In this document: piece after piece, positions 25,053 to 36,895 of the stretch
How positions within the stretch are numbered: the first letter of the stretch is position 1
Layout of the letters: each line of letters starts with the position of its first letter
NCBI GenBank assembly: GCA_903813345.2
Contig: CAIIXF020000012.1
Location: 29,464,684-29,528,683, forward strand
Source of the DNA: Owenia fusiformis
Lineage: Eukaryota > Annelida > Polychaeta > Sabellida > Oweniidae
Direction: 5' to 3'
DNA length: 64,000 bases
The notes under the pieces: generated by a model
What the model saw: only the letters and a program-made list of their open reading frames with translations
Databases searched by the model: none
What the model was told of the DNA's origin: nothing
Position numbers and translations under genes: made by a program

Positions 25053-25489
25053 ATAGTGTAACAAAATTTTGAATTTTTGATTTTTGATTTGGTGCTGTCA
25101 ACTCGTTTTTATACATTTATTACACTTGATTTGTGGTTTACATGTGAGATCATTAGGATGGTAACGTGTAGCAATGTTTGCAGCACTTAGGTTGTACTTA
25201 CAGAGGTGAAATAGTTCGCATGTTTTATTTATTTAATCAAGATTTTGTTGATCGGGCAGTCTTATCTGGCAGTCTAATTTGTAGTTGATCGGTAGTCTAA
25301 CATGACACCTTTATTATTTTACTTCCTGGTTTTGATTCTATCAAATCGAAGTAAAACTAGAGTAAGTAGCGATCAATTAATGTTAGATTTGTTGAGTTCC
25401 AATTATTATCTTGTTGTAGAAGCAATATTAAAGCGGGATATGGCGTCAATAACTTGTTATTTAACTTTGAAATCTTGTTCGAAAAGTGA

Positions 25490-25512
25490 TGACGTCACGA
25501 AGCCTATAAAAG
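25490..25512 (+). promoter_or_regulatory. LTR promoter: CRE and TATA box (5' LTR)
   Basis: A perfect cAMP-response palindrome TGACGTCA (25490-25497) is followed 7 bp later by TATAAAAG (25505-25512). Transcription would start about 30 bp downstream, near 25535. The same pair is at 32934-32956 in the 3' LTR. Confidence 0.65.
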
Positions 25513-26019
25513 TATTTCGCCGATGTAAACTCGGCAGATTACAGCTAGCTTTCGTTCGGGACAGAGCTCCGTTCAATTTCATATTTTTATGTGAAGTTGG
25601 ACTTAGTCGTTTTTCAAGGAAATATTTTTGGACTTTGACAACTTTCAGTAGAAAGTTGTTGGGACTTTGAATATTTCTCGAGGCAGATAGGAGATACATA
25701 GCTGCACTTCAGTTCAATGGATGATAACTTGGACATCTACTTGTGATGAAGGATACCTGAGAGGGAAGACTACTACACCGTGATTCTGTAGATGATAACT
25801 TGGCCATCTACCCGTGTATTTGTGTAGTGTGTAGAGGATACCTCAAGAGGGAATATTCAGTACCGTGTATGGAGGCAGCATCAAGCCTATATTTCTGAGC
25901 TCTGTCAGTTCAATTTCATGAACACATGAAATTGGACTTTGCGTATTTTTTAGATAGAAATTATTGAACTTAGTCAATATTTGGAGAAACATTATTTTGG
26001 ACTTTGTTTGTTCTTGGAG

Positions 26020-26025
26020 AATAAA
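26020..26025 (+). terminator. candidate polyadenylation signal of the LTR
   Basis: AATAAA, repeated at 33464-33469 in the 3' LTR. I see no other AATAAA in the LTR 3' of the expected start site, so R would be about 0.5 kb long and the hairpin array would belong to U5. Confidence 0.45.
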
Positions 26026-26257
26026 TATTGAACTTAGAATATTTCAATATCAGTATAACTCAACATCAACTGAACTTAGTTATTTTCAAGGGCACATATT
26101 TTGACTTGTAATATTTTTGCCTATGTTGTTGTGTGCATGCTATATTTGTAGGTAGCCTGATTATTTAATTGTGAAGGAAGTAGGCTACTTAGCAGTTGAT
26201 GCCATGTATTAGACGTTTTTGGACTTAGTAGTTGGAAGATTGTGATAGTTTAACTAC

Positions 26258-29010
26258 AACACATTGAGGAGGATCCAGGAGATAGTCGTTTCCAGACTTT
26301 ATAATTTGACTTGGATTATTTCACATAATCAAAGTTGAATTATACTACAACACATAGAGGAGGATCCAGGAGATAGTCGTTTCCAGACTTTATAATTTGA
26401 CTTAGATTATTTTACATAGTCAAAGTCGAATTATACTACAACACATAGAGGAGGATCCAGGAGATAGTCGTTTCCAGACTTGATAATTTGACTTAGATTA
26501 TTTTACATAGTCAAAGTCGAATTATACTACAACACATAGAGGAGGATCCAGGAGATAGTCGTTTCCAGACTTGATAATTTGACTTAGATTATTTTACATA
26601 GTCAAAGTCGAATTATACTACAACACATTGAGGAGGATCCAGGAGATAGTCGTTTCCAGACTTTATAATTTGACTTGGATTAATTCACATAATCAAAGTT
26701 GAATTATACTACAACACATAGAGGAGGATCCCGGAGATAGTCGTTTCCAGACTTTATAATTTGACTTAGATTATTTTACATAGTCAAAGTCGAATTATAC
26801 TACAACACATAGAGGAGGATCCAGGAGATAGTCGTTTCCAGACTTGATAATTTGACTTAGATTATTTTACATAGTCAAAGTCGAATTATACTACAACACA
26901 TAGAGGAGGATCCAGGAGATAGTCGTTTCCAGACTTGATAATTTGACTTAGATTATTTTACATAGTCAAAGTCGAATTATACTACAACACATTGAGGAGG
27001 ATCCAGGAGATAGCCGTTTACTGAGCAATAGTTTGACTTAGATTATTTCACATAATCAAAGTTGAATTATACTACAACACATAGAGGAGGATCCAGGAGA
27101 TAGTCGTTTCCAGACTTGATAATTTGACTTAGATTATTTTACATAGTCAAAGTCGAATTATACTACAACACATTGAGGAGGATCCAGGAGATAGCCGTTT
27201 ACAGAGCAATAGTTTGACTTAGATTATTTCACATAATCAAAGTTGAATTATACTACAACACATTGAGGAGGATCCAGGAGATAGTCGTTTCCAGACTTGA
27301 TAATTTGACTTAGATTATTTCACATAATCAAAGTTGAATTATACTACAACACATTGAGGAGGATCCAGGAGATAGTCGTTTCCAGACTTGATAATTTGAC
27401 TTAGATTATTTTACATAGTCAAAGTCGAATTATACTACAACACATTGAGGAGGATCCAGGAGATAGCCATTTACAGAGCCGATAGTTTGACTTAGATTAT
27501 TTCGCATAATCAAAGTTGAATTATACTACAACACAGTGAGGAGGATCCAGGAGATAGCCATTTACAGAGCCGATAGTTTGACTTAGATTATTTCGCATAA
27601 TCAAAGTTGAATTATACTACAACACAGTGAGGAGGATCCAGGAGATAGCCATTTACAGAGCCGATAGTTTGACTTAGATTATTTCATATAATCAAAGTTG
27701 AATTATACTACAACACAGTGAGGAGGATCCAGGAGATAGCCATTTACAGAGCCGATAGTTTGACTTAGATTATTTTACATAGTCAAAGTCGAATTATACT
27801 ACAACACATAGAGGAGGATCCAGGAGATAGTCGTTTCCAGACTTGATAATTTGACTTAGATTATTTTACATAGTCAAAGTCGAATTATACTACAACACAT
27901 TGAGGAGGATCCAGGAGATAGCCGTTTACTGAGCAATAGTTTGACTTAGATTATTTCACATAATCAAAGTTGAATTATACTACAACACATAGAGGAGGAT
28001 CCAGGAGATAGTCGTTTCCAGACTTGATAATTTGACTTAGATTATTTTACATAGTCAAAGTCGAATTATACTACAACACATTGAGGAGGATCCAGGAGAT
28101 AGCCGTTTACAGAGCAATAGTTTGACTTAGATTATTTCACATAATCAAAGTTGAATTATACTACAACACATAGAGGAGGATCCAGGAGATAGTCGTTTCC
28201 AGACTTGATAATTTGACTTAGATTATTTTACATAGTCAAAGTCGAATTATACTACAACACATAGAGGAGGATCCAGGAGATAGTCGTTTCCAGACTTGAT
28301 AATTTGACTTAGATTATTTTACATAGTCAAAGTCGAATTATACTACAACACATTGAGGAGGATCCAGGAGATAGCCGTTTACTGAGCAATAGTTTGACTT
28401 AGATTATTTCACATAATCAAAGTTGAATTATACTACAACACATAGAGGAGGATCCAGGAGATAGTCGTTTCCAGACTTGATAATTTGACTTAGATTATTT
28501 TACATAGTCAAAGTCGAATTATACTACAACACATTGAGGAGGATCCAGGAGATAGCCGTTTACAGAGCAATAGTTTGACTTAGATTATTTCACATAATCA
28601 AAGTTGAATTATACTACAACACATTGAGGAGGATCCAGGAGATAGTCGTTTCCAGACTTGATAATTTGACTTAGATTATTTCACATAATCAAAGTTGAAT
28701 TATACTACAACACATTGAGGAGGATCCAGGAGATAGTCGTTTCCAGACTTGATAATTTGACTTAGATTATTTTACATAGTCAAAGTCGAATTATACTACA
28801 ACACATTGAGGAGGATCCAGGAGATAGCCATTTACAGAGCCGATAGTTTGACTTAGATTATTTCGCATAATCAAAGTTGAATTATACTACAACACAGTGA
28901 GGAGGATCCAGGAGATAGCCATTTACAGAGCCGATAGTTTGACTTAGATTATTTCATATAATCAAAGTTGAATTATACTACAACACAGTGAGGAGGATCC
29001 AGGAGATTAC
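26258..29010 (+). repeat. hairpin-forming tandem array in the 5' LTR, about 30 x 90-91 bp
   Basis: Units are marked by GGAGGATCCAGGAGATAG; the GGATCC words run from 26271 to 28995 at 90-91 bp spacing. In each unit ATAATTTGACTTAGATTAT and ATAATCAAAGTTGAATTAT flank a 5-nt loop (TTCAC, TTTAC, TTCGC or TTCAT) and pair over 18 of 19 positions as RNA. Variants: the left arm can be ATAGTTTGACTTAGATTAT; the right arm can be ATAGTCAAAGTCGAATTAT. All keep pairing through A-U, G-U and G-C exchanges. The pre-hairpin segment comes in forms TCGTTTCCAGACTT, CCGTTTACTGAGCAA, CCGTTTACAGAGCAA and CCATTTACAGAGCCG. Confidence 0.92.
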
Positions 29011-29448
29011 TATTCCAGGTTCAAGATACAATAACAATACGAGACGTACAAGTGGTACAATATACATGAACTTTGCATATTTGGGATACAACAGTGTTAT
29101 ATGGTGATCATCAGTTTCAATTTATATGGACTCTGGATATTATTTTATCAGTGATAATAATTATTAGCTCATATGGACTTTTGAGTTGTGAGTTTTGAGA
29201 GAAATAATAACACCGTAATATTCTTACATTACATTTGAAATTGCATGTACATCTTATTTGGGCTTATAAACGCCACAATATATTGTTTTATATTATATAT
29301 ATAAAATTGTATATTTTGTTTATTTCTTTAGGGACAAAGCACATTTAACGTGTGCCGTGCAATCCACAAGTAAACACCGTTTACTAAACAGTGGTCTTTT
29401 TATTAGCCACACTACCACATATCCACAAAAAAGGCCAAACTGTTACAC

Positions 29449-29467
29449 TGGTGGCAGTGGTGGGATT
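29449..29467 (+). promoter_or_regulatory. primer-binding site, tRNA-Leu type
   Basis: TGGTGGCAGTGGTGGGATT begins one base after the 5' LTR. It is complementary to the 3' end of metazoan tRNA-Leu (AATCCCACCGCTGCCA plus CCA) except for one G-U pair. Confidence 0.75.
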
Positions 29468-29514
29468 GATTGTGTCTGAAGATTTAAACCAGAGGTGCAT
29501 TATACAGTTTCAAG

Positions 29515-32199
29515 ATGGATCCAGAGCCCAGTCTCCCATATCTGAAGCGTGGAGATTATGTAGATATTGAAGGGGAGACTTCTGTATATGTGAAGACATA
29601 TTCTGGGGAATTAAGGAATCCTGGAGCTAAGGATCCAATGAGAGAAGCTGAGGAGAGAGGATTGCCTAGTAGTTTAGGTACAGGGTATTGGTCTAGAGGA
29701 GGACTGACCAATTTAGAGACTCCAGCGAATCCCTTCAATAAGGATAAGATGAATCCTACTGTGAGAAGTCAGAGTCCAATGACTTCTACCATGATTGATC
29801 AGCCTTTGAATAAAGGACAATCAGAGGATATAGTGAAACAAGAGTTAACTATGGTGGAAGGTCAGCTGCGAGATCAGATGTCTGTTTTTGGGAATATTGC
29901 AGAGGCACGACAGACACAGTTGGATGATATTAGAGAGACCCAACAAAGACAGACTCATAGTGTGACTCGAATAGAAGAGCAAATGACAGGGAGTAGAAGT
30001 ACACAACAAATTAGAGATGATATGGATCGGTTGCAGGCGATCCTCGAAAGATTAGAGAGTAATACGGAAGCAGCTAGTAAAGGGACCAAGTCCAATGGTG
30101 TTTTGTATGCAGGGAATGCTATTGATAATGATTTGTATGTAACTCCAAGTGGAGCTCAAAGGGGAGCACAATGGTCGCCTCCATTGTCTATGAGTCGGGT
30201 TCAGCATAAGGAAGAGTGTTTTACACCTGAACTCCCTACTCCAAAAAGGAGGCCATGGAAGTTGGAGAGACAAGACAGATTTTACACAACTTCAACACAC
30301 CCGCCTGCTGGTAGAGACCAGCGAGATCCTACCGGGATACACTGTAAACAAGAGGATGTTTGTGCTTCAGAGAGCAAGTATGCTACACAGGAAATTGCAG
30401 GCCCAAGGAAGGGGCATGTTCAAAGGAACCATGATTCCGAGGAACAGTTTCCTGTTGATGAACATAAATTTGAAACTAGAGTTCCATGCAGCGATTCTGC
30501 TAATGAGAAGAGTGGAACATTTTATACCAATTCCTCCAGTGAGTCAATGGACTTAATGAGGATGTTAAGTCAGATGTCCAAACCTAGGAACAGGATCAAG
30601 CCTGAGACTTACAATGGCACAACTCCTTGGCAAGAGTACCGAGCCCATTTTGAAATATGTGCTAACGCTAACAGCTGGACCACAGAAGAGAAAAATGAGT
30701 ACTTAGCTACCAGTCTGCGAGGTACCGCCCAACAGATTGTGTTAGAAATGGAAGCTGAGTACACATATGACCAGTTAGTTTTAGCCTTGGAGAAGAGATA
30801 TGGGCCAGGAGGAAAAGCTGAGATATATGAGGCTGAATTACTTGGGCGAGTGAGGAAGCCAAAGGAATCATTACAAACTTTAGGACAGGATATCAGGCGA
30901 CTTACAGCATTGGCATATCCTGAGATGAGTAGGTCAGAACAGGACCGATTAGCAAGGCGTAGTTTTGAGCAGGCGATTGCAGAGGATGACATACGCCGAG
31001 CAATACATGTTAATGAATGTACTTCATTGGATAAGGCGATTGAAATAGCCCTAAGAGAAGAATCTTATCTGGGATCAGAAAGAATACGGAGAGGATCAAA
31101 GCCTCAATACAGTCATGTAAATGTTTTGGAAGAAAAGGAAGACCAATTAAAGAAACTCACTCGGCTAATAGAAGAGTTAGGAAACAGGCAAGAAGAAGAA
31201 CGTAAAAATATGGAACAAGATCGCAAAAACTTTGAGAAAGATCGAGAAAATTTTGAGAAAAGAATCAAGCTACTTGAGCAACAGATCCAGTCAAAGGAAT
31301 CCAGAAGAAATGGCTATAAACGATTGGAGTGTTTTTATTGTCACAAAACCGGACATCTTATTGCTGACTGTTACACTAGAAAACGTGCAGAAGAAATCAA
31401 GGAAGCTAAAGAGAGGCAGAGTCAAGTTGCAACAGTAAGGTTCCAATCGCTACAAGGGAAGGATGTCAAATCTTCCAGAGATACTAAGAAGATTGTTGCT
31501 TCTGGAAAAGTTTGTGACACGAAGGTTGAATTCCTTGTAGACTCGGGTGCAGCTAGTAGTATTTTGAGTTTAAAGATCTACAAAGAGATCCCTGAAGACA
31601 TAAGACCCGAGCTTGAGCCACAAAAGAGAATCATTTTGCAAGCTGGTGGAGAACCTTTAGCTGTTGCAGGTGTTATGCACGTTGACCTACACATAGATGA
31701 TCATAAACAAAATTTAGAAGTATTTGTGGCTGACATTGAATTCAAAGGAATTCTGGGTAGCGACTTTTTAGCAGCTTCAAGGGTAATATTGGACTATGGC
31801 AAATGTTCCATGACTTTTGGACCAGAGAGTTCAAGTGCTGCTCAGATAGTAGGAGATACCAAACCGTCAACCAACCTGCCGAGTGAAACCAAGAACAAGC
31901 GGATTCTTGGAAAAAGAGCAGTCAATCCTTCAGGGAAAGTGACTCCTCCACCGATAGCATCCAAGAGGAGGACCTTGGATTTAACAGATGGTCACCCGTT
32001 TCATGAGCAGAGACATGGCAGGGACAGAGGATTGAACAAAGTCCCTGGACGCCGAGGTAACGAACAAAGTACTTCGAGTCATGAAGGCATGCCAAGTACT
32101 TATCCAGTAAAGGTGCCTTTGGCTAGAGTTTATCGAGGAAGATATCAGAGGCCTCGGCAGAGAAGCGATATAGATGTTAACTGGAGGAAGGGTTCCTAG
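29515..32199 (+). CDS. Gag-protease polyprotein of the LTR element, 894 aa
   Basis: Structural protein plus protease of a retrotransposon; it should form the particle that packages the element RNA and process itself. Residues about 105-185 and 530-600 are charged and predicted coiled coil. About 362-520 is a Ty3/Gypsy-type capsid region (starts KPETYNGTTPWQEY). A CCHC zinc knuckle, CX2CX4HX4C, occupies 606-619 (CFYCHKTGHLIADC). A retropepsin follows, with catalytic DSGA at 676-679 and the flap-distal ILGSDFL near 746-752. The last 90 residues are basic and Arg-rich, ending in TAG at 32197-32199. The ORF is intact, with no frameshift. In autonomous relatives the reading continues into reverse transcriptase; here it stops and is followed by 300 bp of non-coding DNA. 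The ATG lies 67 nt after the LTR. Confidence 0.92.
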   Translation: MDPEPSLPYLKRGDYVDIEGETSVYVKTYSGELRNPGAKDPMREAEERGLPSSLGTGYWSRGGLTNLETPANPFNKDKMNPTVRSQSPMTSTMIDQPLNKGQSEDIVKQELTMVEGQLRDQMSVFGNIAEARQTQLDDIRETQQRQTHSVTRIEEQMTGSRSTQQIRDDMDRLQAILERLESNTEAASKGTKSNGVLYAGNAIDNDLYVTPSGAQRGAQWSPPLSMSRVQHKEECFTPELPTPKRRPWKLERQDRFYTTSTHPPAGRDQRDPTGIHCKQEDVCASESKYATQEIAGPRKGHVQRNHDSEEQFPVDEHKFETRVPCSDSANEKSGTFYTNSSSESMDLMRMLSQMSKPRNRIKPETYNGTTPWQEYRAHFEICANANSWTTEEKNEYLATSLRGTAQQIVLEMEAEYTYDQLVLALEKRYGPGGKAEIYEAELLGRVRKPKESLQTLGQDIRRLTALAYPEMSRSEQDRLARRSFEQAIAEDDIRRAIHVNECTSLDKAIEIALREESYLGSERIRRGSKPQYSHVNVLEEKEDQLKKLTRLIEELGNRQEEERKNMEQDRKNFEKDRENFEKRIKLLEQQIQSKESRRNGYKRLECFYCHKTGHLIADCYTRKRAEEIKEAKERQSQVATVRFQSLQGKDVKSSRDTKKIVASGKVCDTKVEFLVDSGAASSILSLKIYKEIPEDIRPELEPQKRIILQAGGEPLAVAGVMHVDLHIDDHKQNLEVFVADIEFKGILGSDFLAASRVILDYGKCSMTFGPESSSAAQIVGDTKPSTNLPSETKNKRILGKRAVNPSGKVTPPPIASKRRTLDLTDGHPFHEQRHGRDRGLNKVPGRRGNEQSTSSHEGMPSTYPVKVPLARVYRGRYQRPRQRSDIDVNWRKGS

Positions 32200-32500
32200 A
32201 ACTAAACAGCAACTTTACAGCAGAATTGTGAGTTAGATATTTATAGCTAACTTGTTTGTTAGAGACTTGAGGTCTCACGTCATACACAGCTGTAAGTTGT
32301 AGTTACTTTTCCGAATACTGTAAATAGTAGTTAGCTTTACATGAAGTTAGGACAGTTTTTGTGTAGGATTGTATTAGCAACTAGTTGCACACAATTGTAC
32401 AGTTGTATTTTGTTAGGGTAGCTAAGTAAGCAAAATTTTGTTATTTTTTTTGTACTTTAAGCTTGGTGTTGTAAACACCAAAATCATTGGATTGGAGGAG
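32200..32500 (+). other. 3' untranslated internal region with purine tract
   Basis: Non-coding. The last bases before the 3' LTR, ATTGGAGGAG, are purine-rich and would serve as the polypurine tract that primes plus-strand DNA. A short inverted motif GGTGTTGTAAACACC lies at about 32465-32479. Confidence 0.65.
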
Positions 32501-35500
32501 TGTAACAAAATTTTGAATTTTTGATTTTTGATTTGGTGCTGTCAACTCGTTTTTATACATTTATTACACTTGATTTGTGGTTTACATGTGAGATCATTAG
32601 GATGGTAACGTGTAGCAATGTTTGCAGCACTTAGGTTGTACTTACAGAGGTGAAATAGTTCGCATGTTTTATTTATTTAATCAAGATTTTGTTGATCGGG
32701 CAGTCTTATCTGGCAGTCTAATTTGTAGTTGATCGGTAGTCTAACATGACACCTTTATTATTTTACTTCCTGGTTTTGATTCTATCAAATCGAAGTAAAA
32801 CTAGAGTAAGTAGCGATCAATTAATGTTAGATTTGTTGAGTTCCAATTATTATCTTGTTGTAGAAGCAATATTAAAGCGGGATATGGCGTCAATAACTTG
32901 TTATTTAACTTTGAAATCTTGTTCGAAAAGTGATGACGTCACGAAGCCTATAAAAGTATTTCGCCGATGTAAACTCGGCAGATTACAGCTAGCTTTCGTT
33001 CGGGACAGAGCTCCGTTCAATTTCATATTTTTATGTGAAGTTGGACTTAGTCGTTTTTCAAGGAAATATTTTTGGACTTTGACAACTTTCAGTAGAAAGT
33101 TGTTGGGACTTTGAATATTTCTCGAGGCAGATAGGAGATACATAGCTGCACTTCAGTTCAATGGATGATAACTTGGACATCTACTTGTGATGAAGGATAC
33201 CTGAGAGGGAAGACTACTACACCGTGATTCTGTAGATGATAACTTGGCCATCTACCCGTGTATTTGTGTAGTGTGTAGAGGATACCTCAAGAGGGAATAT
33301 TCAGTACCGTGTATGGAGGCAGCATCAAGCCTATATTTCTGAGCTCTGTCAGTTCAATTTCATGAACACATGAAATTGGACTTTGCGTATTTTTTAGATA
33401 GAAATTATTGAACTTAGTCAATATTTGGAGAAACATTATTTTGGACTTTGTTTGTTCTTGGAGAATAAATATTGAACTTAGAATATTTCAATATCAGTAT
33501 AACTCAACATCAACTGAACTTAGTTATTTTCAAGGGCACATATTTTGACTTGTAATATTTTTGCCTATGTTGTTGTGTGCATGCTATATTTGTAGGTAGC
33601 CTGATTATTTAATTGTGAAGGAAGTAGGCTACTTAGCAGTTGATGCCATGTATTAGACGTTTTTGGACTTAGTAGTTGGAAGATTGTGATAGTTTAACTA
33701 CAACACATTGAGGAGGATCCAGGAGATAGTCGTTTCCAGACTTTATAATTTGACTTGGATTATTTCACATAATCAAAGTTGAATTATACTACAACACATA
33801 GAGGAGGATCCAGGAGATAGTCGTTTCCAGACTTTATAATTTGACTTAGATTATTTTACATAGTCAAAGTCGAATTATACTACAACACATAGAGGAGGAT
33901 CCAGGAGATAGTCGTTTCCAGACTTGATAATTTGACTTAGATTATTTTACATAGTCAAAGTCGAATTATACTACAACACATAGAGGAGGATCCAGGAGAT
34001 AGTCGTTTCCAGACTTGATAATTTGACTTAGATTATTTTACATAGTCAAAGTCGAATTATACTACAACACATTGAGGAGGATCCAGGAGATAGTCGTTTC
34101 CAGACTTTATAATTTGACTTGGATTAATTCACATAATCAAAGTTGAATTATACTACAACACATAGAGGAGGATCCCGGAGATAGTCGTTTCCAGACTTTA
34201 TAATTTGACTTAGATTATTTTACATAGTCAAAGTCGAATTATACTACAACACATAGAGGAGGATCCAGGAGATAGTCGTTTCCAGACTTGATAATTTGAC
34301 TTAGATTATTTTACATAGTCAAAGTCGAATTATACTACAACACATAGAGGAGGATCCAGGAGATAGTCGTTTCCAGACTTGATAATTTGACTTAGATTAT
34401 TTTACATAGTCAAAGTCGAATTATACTACAACACATTGAGGAGGATCCAGGAGATAGCCGTTTACTGAGCAATAGTTTGACTTAGATTATTTCACATAAT
34501 CAAAGTTGAATTATACTACAACACATAGAGGAGGATCCAGGAGATAGTCGTTTCCAGACTTGATAATTTGACTTAGATTATTTTACATAGTCAAAGTCGA
34601 ATTATACTACAACACATTGAGGAGGATCCAGGAGATAGCCGTTTACAGAGCAATAGTTTGACTTAGATTATTTCACATAATCAAAGTTGAATTATACTAC
34701 AACACATTGAGGAGGATCCAGGAGATAGTCGTTTCCAGACTTGATAATTTGACTTAGATTATTTCACATAATCAAAGTTGAATTATACTACAACACATTG
34801 AGGAGGATCCAGGAGATAGTCGTTTCCAGACTTGATAATTTGACTTAGATTATTTTACATAGTCAAAGTCGAATTATACTACAACACATTGAGGAGGATC
34901 CAGGAGATAGCCATTTACAGAGCCGATAGTTTGACTTAGATTATTTCGCATAATCAAAGTTGAATTATACTACAACACAGTGAGGAGGATCCAGGAGATA
35001 GCCATTTACAGAGCCGATAGTTTGACTTAGATTATTTCGCATAATCAAAGTTGAATTATACTACAACACAGTGAGGAGGATCCAGGAGATAGCCATTTAC
35101 AGAGCCGATAGTTTGACTTAGATTATTTCATATAATCAAAGTTGAATTATACTACAACACAGTGAGGAGGATCCAGGAGATAGCCATTTACAGAGCCGAT
35201 AGTTTGACTTAGATTATTTTACATAGTCAAAGTCGAATTATACTACAACACATAGAGGAGGATCCAGGAGATAGTCGTTTCCAGACTTGATAATTTGACT
35301 TAGATTATTTTACATAGTCAAAGTCGAATTATACTACAACACATTGAGGAGGATCCAGGAGATAGCCGTTTACTGAGCAATAGTTTGACTTAGATTATTT
35401 CACATAATCAAAGTTGAATTATACTACAACACATAGAGGAGGATCCAGGAGATAGTCGTTTCCAGACTTGATAATTTGACTTAGATTATTTTACATAGTC

Positions 35501-36891
35501 AAAGTCGAATTATACTACAACACATTGAGGAGGATCCAGGAGATAGCCGTTTACAGAGCAATAGTTTGACTTAGATTATTTCACATAATCAAAGTTGAAT
35601 TATACTACAACACATAGAGGAGGATCCAGGAGATAGTCGTTTCCAGACTTGATAATTTGACTTAGATTATTTTACATAGTCAAAGTCGAATTATACTACA
35701 ACACATAGAGGAGGATCCAGGAGATAGTCGTTTCCAGACTTGATAATTTGACTTAGATTATTTTACATAGTCAAAGTCGAATTATACTACAACACATTGA
35801 GGAGGATCCAGGAGATAGCCGTTTACTGAGCAATAGTTTGACTTAGATTATTTCACATAATCAAAGTTGAATTATACTACAACACATAGAGGAGGATCCA
35901 GGAGATAGTCGTTTCCAGACTTGATAATTTGACTTAGATTATTTTACATAGTCAAAGTCGAATTATACTACAACACATTGAGGAGGATCCAGGAGATAGC
36001 CGTTTACAGAGCAATAGTTTGACTTAGATTATTTCACATAATCAAAGTTGAATTATACTACAACACATTGAGGAGGATCCAGGAGATAGTCGTTTCCAGA
36101 CTTGATAATTTGACTTAGATTATTTCACATAATCAAAGTTGAATTATACTACAACACATTGAGGAGGATCCAGGAGATAGTCGTTTCCAGACTTGATAAT
36201 TTGACTTAGATTATTTTACATAGTCAAAGTCGAATTATACTACAACACATTGAGGAGGATCCAGGAGATAGCCATTTACAGAGCCGATAGTTTGACTTAG
36301 ATTATTTCGCATAATCAAAGTTGAATTATACTACAACACAGTGAGGAGGATCCAGGAGATAGCCATTTACAGAGCCGATAGTTTGACTTAGATTATTTCA
36401 TATAATCAAAGTTGAATTATACTACAACACAGTGAGGAGGATCCAGGAGATTACTATTCCAGGTTCAAGATACAATAACAATACGAGACGTACAAGTGGT
36501 ACAATATACATGAACTTTGCATATTTGGGATACAACAGTGTTATATGGTGATCATCAGTTTCAATTTATATGGACTCTGGATATTATTTTATCAGTGATA
36601 ATAATTATTAGCTCATATGGACTTTTGAGTTGTGAGTTTTGAGAGAAATAATAACACCGTAATATTCTTACATTACATTTGAAATTGCATGTACATCTTA
36701 TTTGGGCTTATAAACGCCACAATATATTGTTTTATATTATATATATAAAATTGTATATTTTGTTTATTTCTTTAGGGACAAAGCACATTTAACGTGTGCC
36801 GTGCAATCCACAAGTAAACACCGTTTACTAAACAGTGGTCTTTTTATTAGCCACACTACCACATATCCACAAAAAAGGCCAAACTGTTACA
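32501..36891 (+). repeat. 3' long terminal repeat, 4391 bp
   Basis: Same length, ends and unit order as the 5' LTR (offset 7444). CRE at 32934-32941, TATA at 32949-32956, AATAAA at 33464-33469, hairpin array about 33702-36454. The ORF at 32746-33114 translates identically to 25302-25670. Confidence 0.93.
33702..36454 (+). repeat. hairpin-forming tandem array in the 3' LTR
   Basis: Copy of the array at 26258-29010. I read the same succession of about 30 unit variants, including the single GGATCCCGGAG variant unit (sixth) and the loop-altered fifth unit. Confidence 0.92.
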
Positions 36892-36895
36892 ATAG

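Follow-up and report, generated by a model that had tools for sequence, protein, structure and literature searches.

Introduction

Plant TR-GAG elements are long terminal repeat (LTR) elements with a gag open reading frame (ORF) and no pol, plant LARD elements combine long LTRs with a non-coding internal domain, and HeT-A of Drosophila, a telomeric non-LTR element, is gag-only and is thought to use the reverse transcriptase (RT) of another element. The closest counterparts of the element described here come from wheat (statements on cited systems refer throughout to the sections of those papers drawn on here). RLG_Quinta encodes Gag, lacks pol and is the partner of RLG_Cereba, an autonomous gypsy element with a single ORF; they have the primer binding site (PBS), the LTR ends and the 3' half of the LTR in common, and the Gag region has recombined between Quinta lineages (PMC11302176). 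Here we report an element from a 64,000-nucleotide stretch of the genome of the annelid Owenia fusiformis (contig CAIIXF020000012.1, positions 29,464,684 to 29,528,683; 'the window') that encodes Gag and a protease. It is probably a recent copy of an old gag-protease satellite lineage of the Ty3/gypsy type that is replicated in trans and exchanges sequence with its partners through template switching. As judged by sequence comparison it is a mosaic, with a 5' half like that of a full-length partner, F1, and a 3' half of the satellite lineage. This make-up is absent from the initial annotation of the locus.

Long-lived semi-autonomous elements encoding Gag are described in wheat for RLG_Sabrina and RLG_WHAM with RLG_Wilma, and for RLC_Angela; non-autonomous lineages of Angela apparently changed their autonomous host, and their LTR tree differs from the tree of the internal region (PMC9744471). 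Gag-supplying partners, Gag recombination and change of host are already described there (PMC11302176, PMC9744471). The sole ORF of the mammalian ERVL-MaLR elements is a putative gag (PMC10735291), and non-autonomous LTR elements with long tandem repeats are found in an animal, Culex (PMC3286476). Template switching between LTR elements has been described in Triticeae (PMC1950507), and in plant Ty1/copia the trees of different domains conflict (PMC6317226).

Results

Structure of the element and its reading frame

The element extends from 25057 to 36891 and is flanked by ATAG target-site duplications (TSDs), so that the span 25053-36895 takes in both 4-bp copies. It is intact, as first annotated: the pair of 4391-bp LTRs with TG...CA ends, the TSD, the tRNA-Leu PBS, the purine tract and the 894-codon ORF were all recovered. 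Aligned base by base, the two LTRs are identical, with no gaps and no mismatches over 4391 bp, and their ends read TGTAACA...TGTTACA. The internal region measures 3053 bp (29448-32500). The features are as follows.

25053..25056, + strand: target-site duplication, left copy (ATAG)
25057..29447, + strand: 5' LTR, 4391 bp, same sequence as the 3' LTR (alignment, 0 mismatches)
29449..29465, + strand: PBS, complement of the 3' end of tRNA-Leu(TAG)
29515..32199, + strand: single gag-protease ORF, 894 residues, no RT or integrase match
30580..31176, + strand: capsid region, siding with the autonomous partner F1 (85-87%)
31327..31371, + strand: CCHC zinc knuckle, approximate border between the partner-like 5' module and the satellite-lineage 3' module
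31501..31773, + strand: aspartic protease (Pfam Asp_protease_2, 1.3e-6, above cut-off)
31831..32196, + strand: C-terminal tail, 122 residues, no Pfam match
32463..32481, + strand: perfect 8-bp inverted repeat (TTGGTGTT/AACACCAA), directly 5' of the purine tract, common to F1
32494..32500, + strand: purine tract GGAGGAG, adjoining the 3' LTR
32501..36891, + strand: 3' LTR, 4391 bp (pairwise LTR alignment)
36892..36895, + strand: target-site duplication, right copy (ATAG)

TG...CA LTR ends, a short TSD, a tRNA PBS and a purine tract are structural marks of Ty3/gypsy elements and are all present; pol, with the order protease (PR), RT, RNase H (RH) and integrase (INT), is absent from the window element. 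The PBS is exactly complementary to the 3' end of a tRNA-Leu(TAG) gene in the same genome; the search pattern, made of T-arm and acceptor end, occurred once in the genome, and ARAGORN calls the locus tRNA-Leu. This gene (L021 1498-1581, minus strand) seems to have a genomic CCA, which is unusual for a eukaryotic tRNA gene. The 8-bp inverted repeat also falls inside weaker genomic matches.

The ORF consists of an N-terminal region, the capsid region, one CCHC knuckle, the aspartic protease and the tail. Among the domains first annotated, the protease stands on a Pfam match above cut-off; the matches to the CCHC knuckle and to gag-asp_proteas fall below the cut-offs, and the capsid of the window copy has no Pfam match above cut-off. 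Among seven aligned members, weak capsid matches to PNMA, DUF1759, Ty3_capsid and Retrotrans_gag were seen. A profile search of PDB with the capsid gave a single match, ribosomal eL29 (E 0.024), which we took as chance.

The protease is under purifying selection and is maintained rather than decaying, because its ratio of non-synonymous to synonymous divergence (dN/dS) is low, its DSG, GG and ILG motifs are invariant in all seven aligned gag-only copies, and its profile matches the solved structure of retroviral-like aspartic protease 1 (E 4e-10). DSG is the catalytic motif of such proteases. The comparison of gag among copies, proposed with the initial annotation, gave dN/dS values of 0.16 for the capsid and 0.25 for the protease within the window element's own clade, A (nine copies), next to 0.49 for the tail and 0.82 for the N-terminal region. 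Between clades A and B, the protease value was 0.13, with 25 of 144 pairs saturated and excluded from the mean of synonymous divergence (dS). The tail is present in clade A and, at 27-45% identity, in most of clade B; it was not found in F1. That it is a remnant of the C-terminus of F1 pol was considered and rejected (best match E 0.98).

Copies in the genome and absence of pol

We scored the best 150 of 374 candidates in a protease search of the genome and the best 150 of 932 in an RT search; statements on the absence of RT refer to the latter. Fifty-five of the listed protease matches have at least 50% identity (54 nearly full-length and one partial, of 69 residues at 68%), and 43 of these sit in a stop-free frame of at least 850 residues. 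None of the 55 has a listed RT match within 15 kb in either direction, so that pol-less copies occur elsewhere in the genome. Among the other 95 protease matches (below 50%), 51 have an RT match within 15 kb and 44 do not: the 34 next-best matches all have one nearby, and the remaining 61 divide into 17 with and 44 without. The weaker relatives without nearby RT are either gag-only too or have an RT outside the listed matches. When 150 capsid matches were inspected in the same way, 54 had RT within 8 kb downstream; the other 96 had no listed RT within 15 kb, except for one with a match 9.4 kb upstream. Reading 3 kb downstream of four copies outside clades A-C revealed no RT in any of them.

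Clade A, defined by a protease identity of at least 88%, comprises 11 copies among the matches listed, including that of the window, and the further copies exclude a single-copy assembly artefact. Both ends were read in eight clade A copies, a count which leaves out C8:33.50 Mb (3' flank unread), L009 and L010. Seven of the eight have 4-bp TSDs; in the eighth, at 5.49 Mb on contig C9, another internal region adjoins the 5' LTR. Over the first 600 bp, the LTR pairs of seven clade A copies are 97.8-100% identical, and the whole LTR pair of copy A2 (2749 bp) is identical.

At C9:5488232, a 3' internal end runs straight into a 5' LTR, and gag-only capsid matches occur in pairs, 5.4-6.5 kb apart, at C11:29628550/29634840, C12:35786748/35792149, C7:16517305/16523693 and C4:25353702/25360212. 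The arrangements suggest tandem copies sharing an LTR. A shorter relative at C245:7939-8769 has about 0.8 kb between matches resembling the primer site and the 3'-LTR side, apparently without gag. More gag-only-looking copies lie outside the main protease clade (L056-L059, L075-L078) and probably represent a second, independent loss of pol.

F1, a full-length partner

Five sampled F1 copies (on contigs C1, C3 twice, C6 and C12) have one open frame of 2534-2599 residues spanning capsid, PR and RT; the frames are shorter at two more F1-type RT matches (C2 and C10). In two F1 copies, pieces of which were examined, the presence of RT, RNase H and integrase domains was confirmed and the order PR-RT-RH-INT was read. 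At the end of the F1 frame (L063 841-2499, minus strand), a 553-residue piece past the integrase has no Pfam match. F1 has a protease dS of 0.012 and an RT identity of 98-100% in the best seven matches, and the two LTRs of the window element are identical; the two elements may have been active at the same time. Over about nt 151-1200, in N-terminal Gag, the five F1 copies (L011-L015) fall into two types about 60-80% alike, with mostly 97-100% identity on either side.

The window LTR matches that of F1 at 94% over nt 474-1161 and at 96% over the last 440 bp, and the first nine bases are identical. The 71 bp preceding the 3' LTR are 90% identical, including the perfect inverted repeat. The 17-mer PBS of the window element is exact in two of the five F1 copies (L011, L014), and a one-base variant is found in the other three; the same two variants are split 5/5 in clade A (10 copies with the PBS read). 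The two variants (within the first 25 internal nt of L001-L015) perhaps correspond to two tRNA-Leu primers. The capsids are 85-87% identical, the proteases 46-47%, and the window protease is 59-65% identical to that of gag-only clade B. Apart from the last 71 bp or so, the tail and 3' untranslated region (UTR) of the window element have no significant match to the F1 3' end.

The initial annotation had pictured an element that makes its own particle and protease and borrows RT and integrase from a partner. An autonomous element with the same PBS and LTR ends does exist in F1; together with the pol-less copies it supports the borrowing, and the element may make particles and may be moved by F1.

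Conflicting histories of capsid and protease

Trees were computed for 59 sampled sequences: 35 gag-only copies of clades A (11), B (17) and C (7), four of a further gag-only group, E, and 20 full-length copies (F1, five; F2, three; F3, three; CF, five; DF, four). In the protease tree, the 35 gag-only A, B and C sequences form one clade (support 100/99) on a branch of 0.35. In the capsid tree, they are distributed among full-length lineages: nine A sequences group with F1 (100/99), L009 and L010, which belong to clade A by protease, with F2 (82/95), four B sequences with L041 of F3 (100/99), and C with CF (100/99). The minimum number of changes between the gag-only and full-length states is six on the capsid tree and one on the protease tree when E is left out, and eight and two when it is included. 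Approximately unbiased (AU) tests agree. On the capsid, monophyly of the gag-only sequences (p 1.5e-5) and of clade A (1e-6) is rejected; on the protease, A+F1 (9e-8), C+CF (8e-6) and L009/L010+F2 (3e-4) are rejected.

A simple internal deletion of F1, recently amplified and without a lineage of its own, would explain the shared PBS, the capsid and much of the LTR past nt 474 (two non-repetitive parts compared, 94-96% identical). E-type copies do look like this: both their protease and their capsid are common with the full-length relative L055, which makes E an ordinary-looking second gag-only lineage (only L058 was read downstream, as L075; the other three are gag-only by the RT list). For the window family we regard such an origin as highly improbable. 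Its protease is closer to clade B than to F1, its tail and 3'UTR are unmatched in the F1 3' end except for the last 71 bp, and A+F1 is rejected on the protease. Because protease and tail belong to another lineage, the element is not a recent internal deletion of its partner, an outcome that the initial annotation had named as a refutation.

The long branch leading to the gag-only protease clade would also be expected if protease and 3' half had only evolved fast after loss of pol, giving a false clade with no recombination. The synonymous sites speak strongly against this. Between A and L009/L010, protease dS is 0.13 while the capsid is saturated in 18 of 18 pairs; capsid dS is 0.72 between A and F1 and 0.54 between L009/L010 and F2, and protease dS is 1.41 between F1 and F2. 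The pattern implies that the 3' halves of A and L009/L010 diverged after the F1/F2 split, and that at least one of the two exchanged its 5' half. With the abrupt junction of copy L042 described below, where identity to the autonomous copy L050 falls from 100% to 37-60% at one point, we give fast evolution very little credence.

Composition of the LTRs

Four features lie within the LTRs.

25057..25530, + strand: LTR segment, probable U3, no blastn match to the F1 LTR
25505..25510, + strand: TATAAA box, LTR position 449
26253..29007, + strand: 91-bp minisatellite, 30.3 copies, within the 5' LTR (Tandem Repeats Finder)
33697..36451, + strand: 91-bp minisatellite, within the 3' LTR (placed by offset from the array in the 5' LTR)

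Up to nt 473, the window LTR has no blastn match to the F1 LTR. Close identity to F1 starts at about LTR position 479 (about 25535), some 30 bp past the TATA box, and the U3/R border is predicted at about 25535, where transcription would be expected to start. The segment 25057..25530 is about 80% identical to the LTRs of clade C and CF and about 82% to those of L009/L010. The F2 piece L072 yielded no LTR start from which to place the U3/R border of F2.

The very long LTRs singled out by the initial annotation are real in length, but consist mostly of a minisatellite of variable copy number which it had missed. The array measures 2755 bp, or 63% of each window LTR; since 26253-29007 is a 30.3-copy array of 91 bp, about 1.6 kb of LTR remains without it. 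The LTRs of sibling clade A copies hold 11.4 (A2), 19.4 (A3) and 10.3 (A4) units, one F1 LTR holds 19.6, and 90/91-bp arrays are also found in one clade C LTR and one CF LTR. In the eight copies of clade A for which both LTR ends were located, the LTRs are about 2.6-4.4 kb long, with the maximum in the window copy. An LTR of 4.4 kb as a fixed feature was rejected, as length follows minisatellite copy number.

Recombinant junctions

The exchange can be located in individual copies. Compared in 100-bp windows, the gag-only copy L042 (contig C9) is 99-100% identical to the autonomous L050 over nt ~800-2300. Over nt 1901-2300 it is 100% identical to L049 and L050 and 72-92% identical to gag-only C (five copies compared). 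Identity to L050 runs through the zinc knuckle (2314-2355) and just after it falls to 37-60%; from nt 2401 on, L042 is 33-61% identical to CF copies and 78-100% (mostly above 90%) to gag-only C.

L009 shows a corresponding switch. In 60-residue windows it is 68-100% identical to F2 through the capsid, with 73-75% in the last window before the switch; past it, identity to F2 is at most 50% and that to the window element 82-92%. The LTR ends and leader of L009/L010 are 95% identical to F2. To the window element, the same two copies are 95% identical over the 105-123 bp that precede the 3' LTR and 82% identical over the initial ~520 bp of the LTR.

Mosaics of this kind could arise by gene conversion between integrated DNA copies instead of template switching; copies are numerous, and some apparently lie in tandem arrays sharing an LTR. 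We hold gene conversion to be unlikely, as the border between window-type and F1-type sequence lies near the predicted U3/R border, and internal borders lie near the zinc knuckle in several pairs; both fit reverse transcription of mixed RNA pairs.

Discussion

Template switching in mixed particles would proceed as follows. The window element is most likely transcribed from its own U3 promoter and translated as Gag-PR, which would co-assemble with Gag-Pol from a full-length partner (F1 in this case); RT and integrase of the partner would then copy and insert the satellite. Both RNAs could thus meet in one particle and template switching could occur. A cDNA begun on partner RNA (R-U5) would be transferred to the 3' end of the satellite RNA, copied through the satellite U3, protease and knuckle, and returned to partner RNA at gag. 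The product would join a partner half (R-U5-leader-gag) to a satellite half (zinc knuckle-protease-3'UTR-U3). From exchanges with several partner lineages it would follow that the satellite retains its protease and 3' half and that its capsid follows the partner. Co-assembly, mobilisation in trans, the recombination step and any benefit to the partner are what we infer from these comparisons; a layout that would need both RNAs in one particle offers the best sequence evidence for mobilisation in trans.

Several points weigh against this interpretation. The grouping of F1 itself on the capsid tree is weak (83/42), the groups for the AU tests were chosen after the trees had been inspected, and the trees are of 59 sampled sequences. 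The profile-based assignment of the capsid is weak as well, and a structure model of the capsid from a single sequence was poor (mean pLDDT 55.8) and was not used. The absence of RT is read from the best 150 of 932 candidates, and the clade is not alone in lacking a nearby RT, since 44 of the 95 weaker protease matches have none either. The U3/R border is a prediction, the satellite identity of L009/L010 reaches to about LTR position 500, some tens of bases beyond the predicted start, and A and C share their U3 type with autonomous CF. Part of the 5' half of L042 is equally close to the gag-only L043 as to autonomous copies. Finally, F1 copies are mosaic among themselves over about nt 151-1200 (N-terminal region), so that exchange also occurs among autonomous copies. 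The split between capsid and protease is the strong pattern, which individual segments need not follow.

As to how the lineage persists, we lean slightly towards a selfish, polymerase-less lineage, whose protease, tail and 3' half descend together, independently of any RT, and which would have outlived several autonomous hosts by taking over the capsid and packaging half of each new partner, perhaps supplying Gag to partners that make Gag-Pol only. A relationship of co-operation instead of parasitism seems a possible but less probable arrangement; as Gag and Pol of the partner come from a single frame, the gag-protease element would provide the extra Gag that both elements need. The single open frame in all five sampled F1 copies is in its favour, and the same role has been proposed for Quinta (PMC11302176); splicing or protein degradation could instead fix the Gag ratio.

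Among the known systems, TR-GAG elements resemble the window element in having gag and lacking pol; the window element adds a protease and has an animal host. An animal origin of the genome is supported by Wnt exons, with 42 matches here and matches in none of 14 control genomes. LARDs, to which it had first been likened, are a poor comparison because they are non-coding: the window element has an internal ORF of 894 codons. The ERVL-MaLR elements are retrovirus-related (ERV3 subfamily), and the model given for them leaves recombination out (PMC10735291). The Culex elements have no coding sequence, carry their repeats between the LTRs and have no known autonomous relative in that account (PMC3286476). 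Non-autonomous Angela copies have degenerate coding regions, whereas the part exchanged in the window family includes an intact capsid gene (PMC9744471).

A search of open-licence papers, in the parts available, revealed no animal gag-protease-only Ty3/gypsy family with exchange of partner capsids. Within that literature, what is new is an animal system of the Ty3/gypsy type with its own protease lineage and with capsids matched to several partners. Recent copies of both element classes occur together in one animal genome, assembled in long contigs. This makes it testable whether co-assembly of Gag with Gag-Pol decides which element is mobilised, by what means a lineage lacking a polymerase survives longer than its hosts, and whether elements that encode Gag-Pol in a single ORF need helpers for Gag dosage.

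The closest likeness is to Quinta and Cereba: the window element and F1 likewise have common PBS variants and LTR termini (the first nine bases), and a 96% match over the last 440 bp. Unlike Quinta, a centromeric plant element described with Gag and DUF1 and with no protease named in that description, the window element is from an animal and encodes a protease; here, too, a separate protease clade goes with capsids that match several autonomous lineages (PMC11302176). The wheat work, in the sections considered, infers partnership mainly from LTRs, PBS and timing; in the present family it is the capsid itself that follows the partner.

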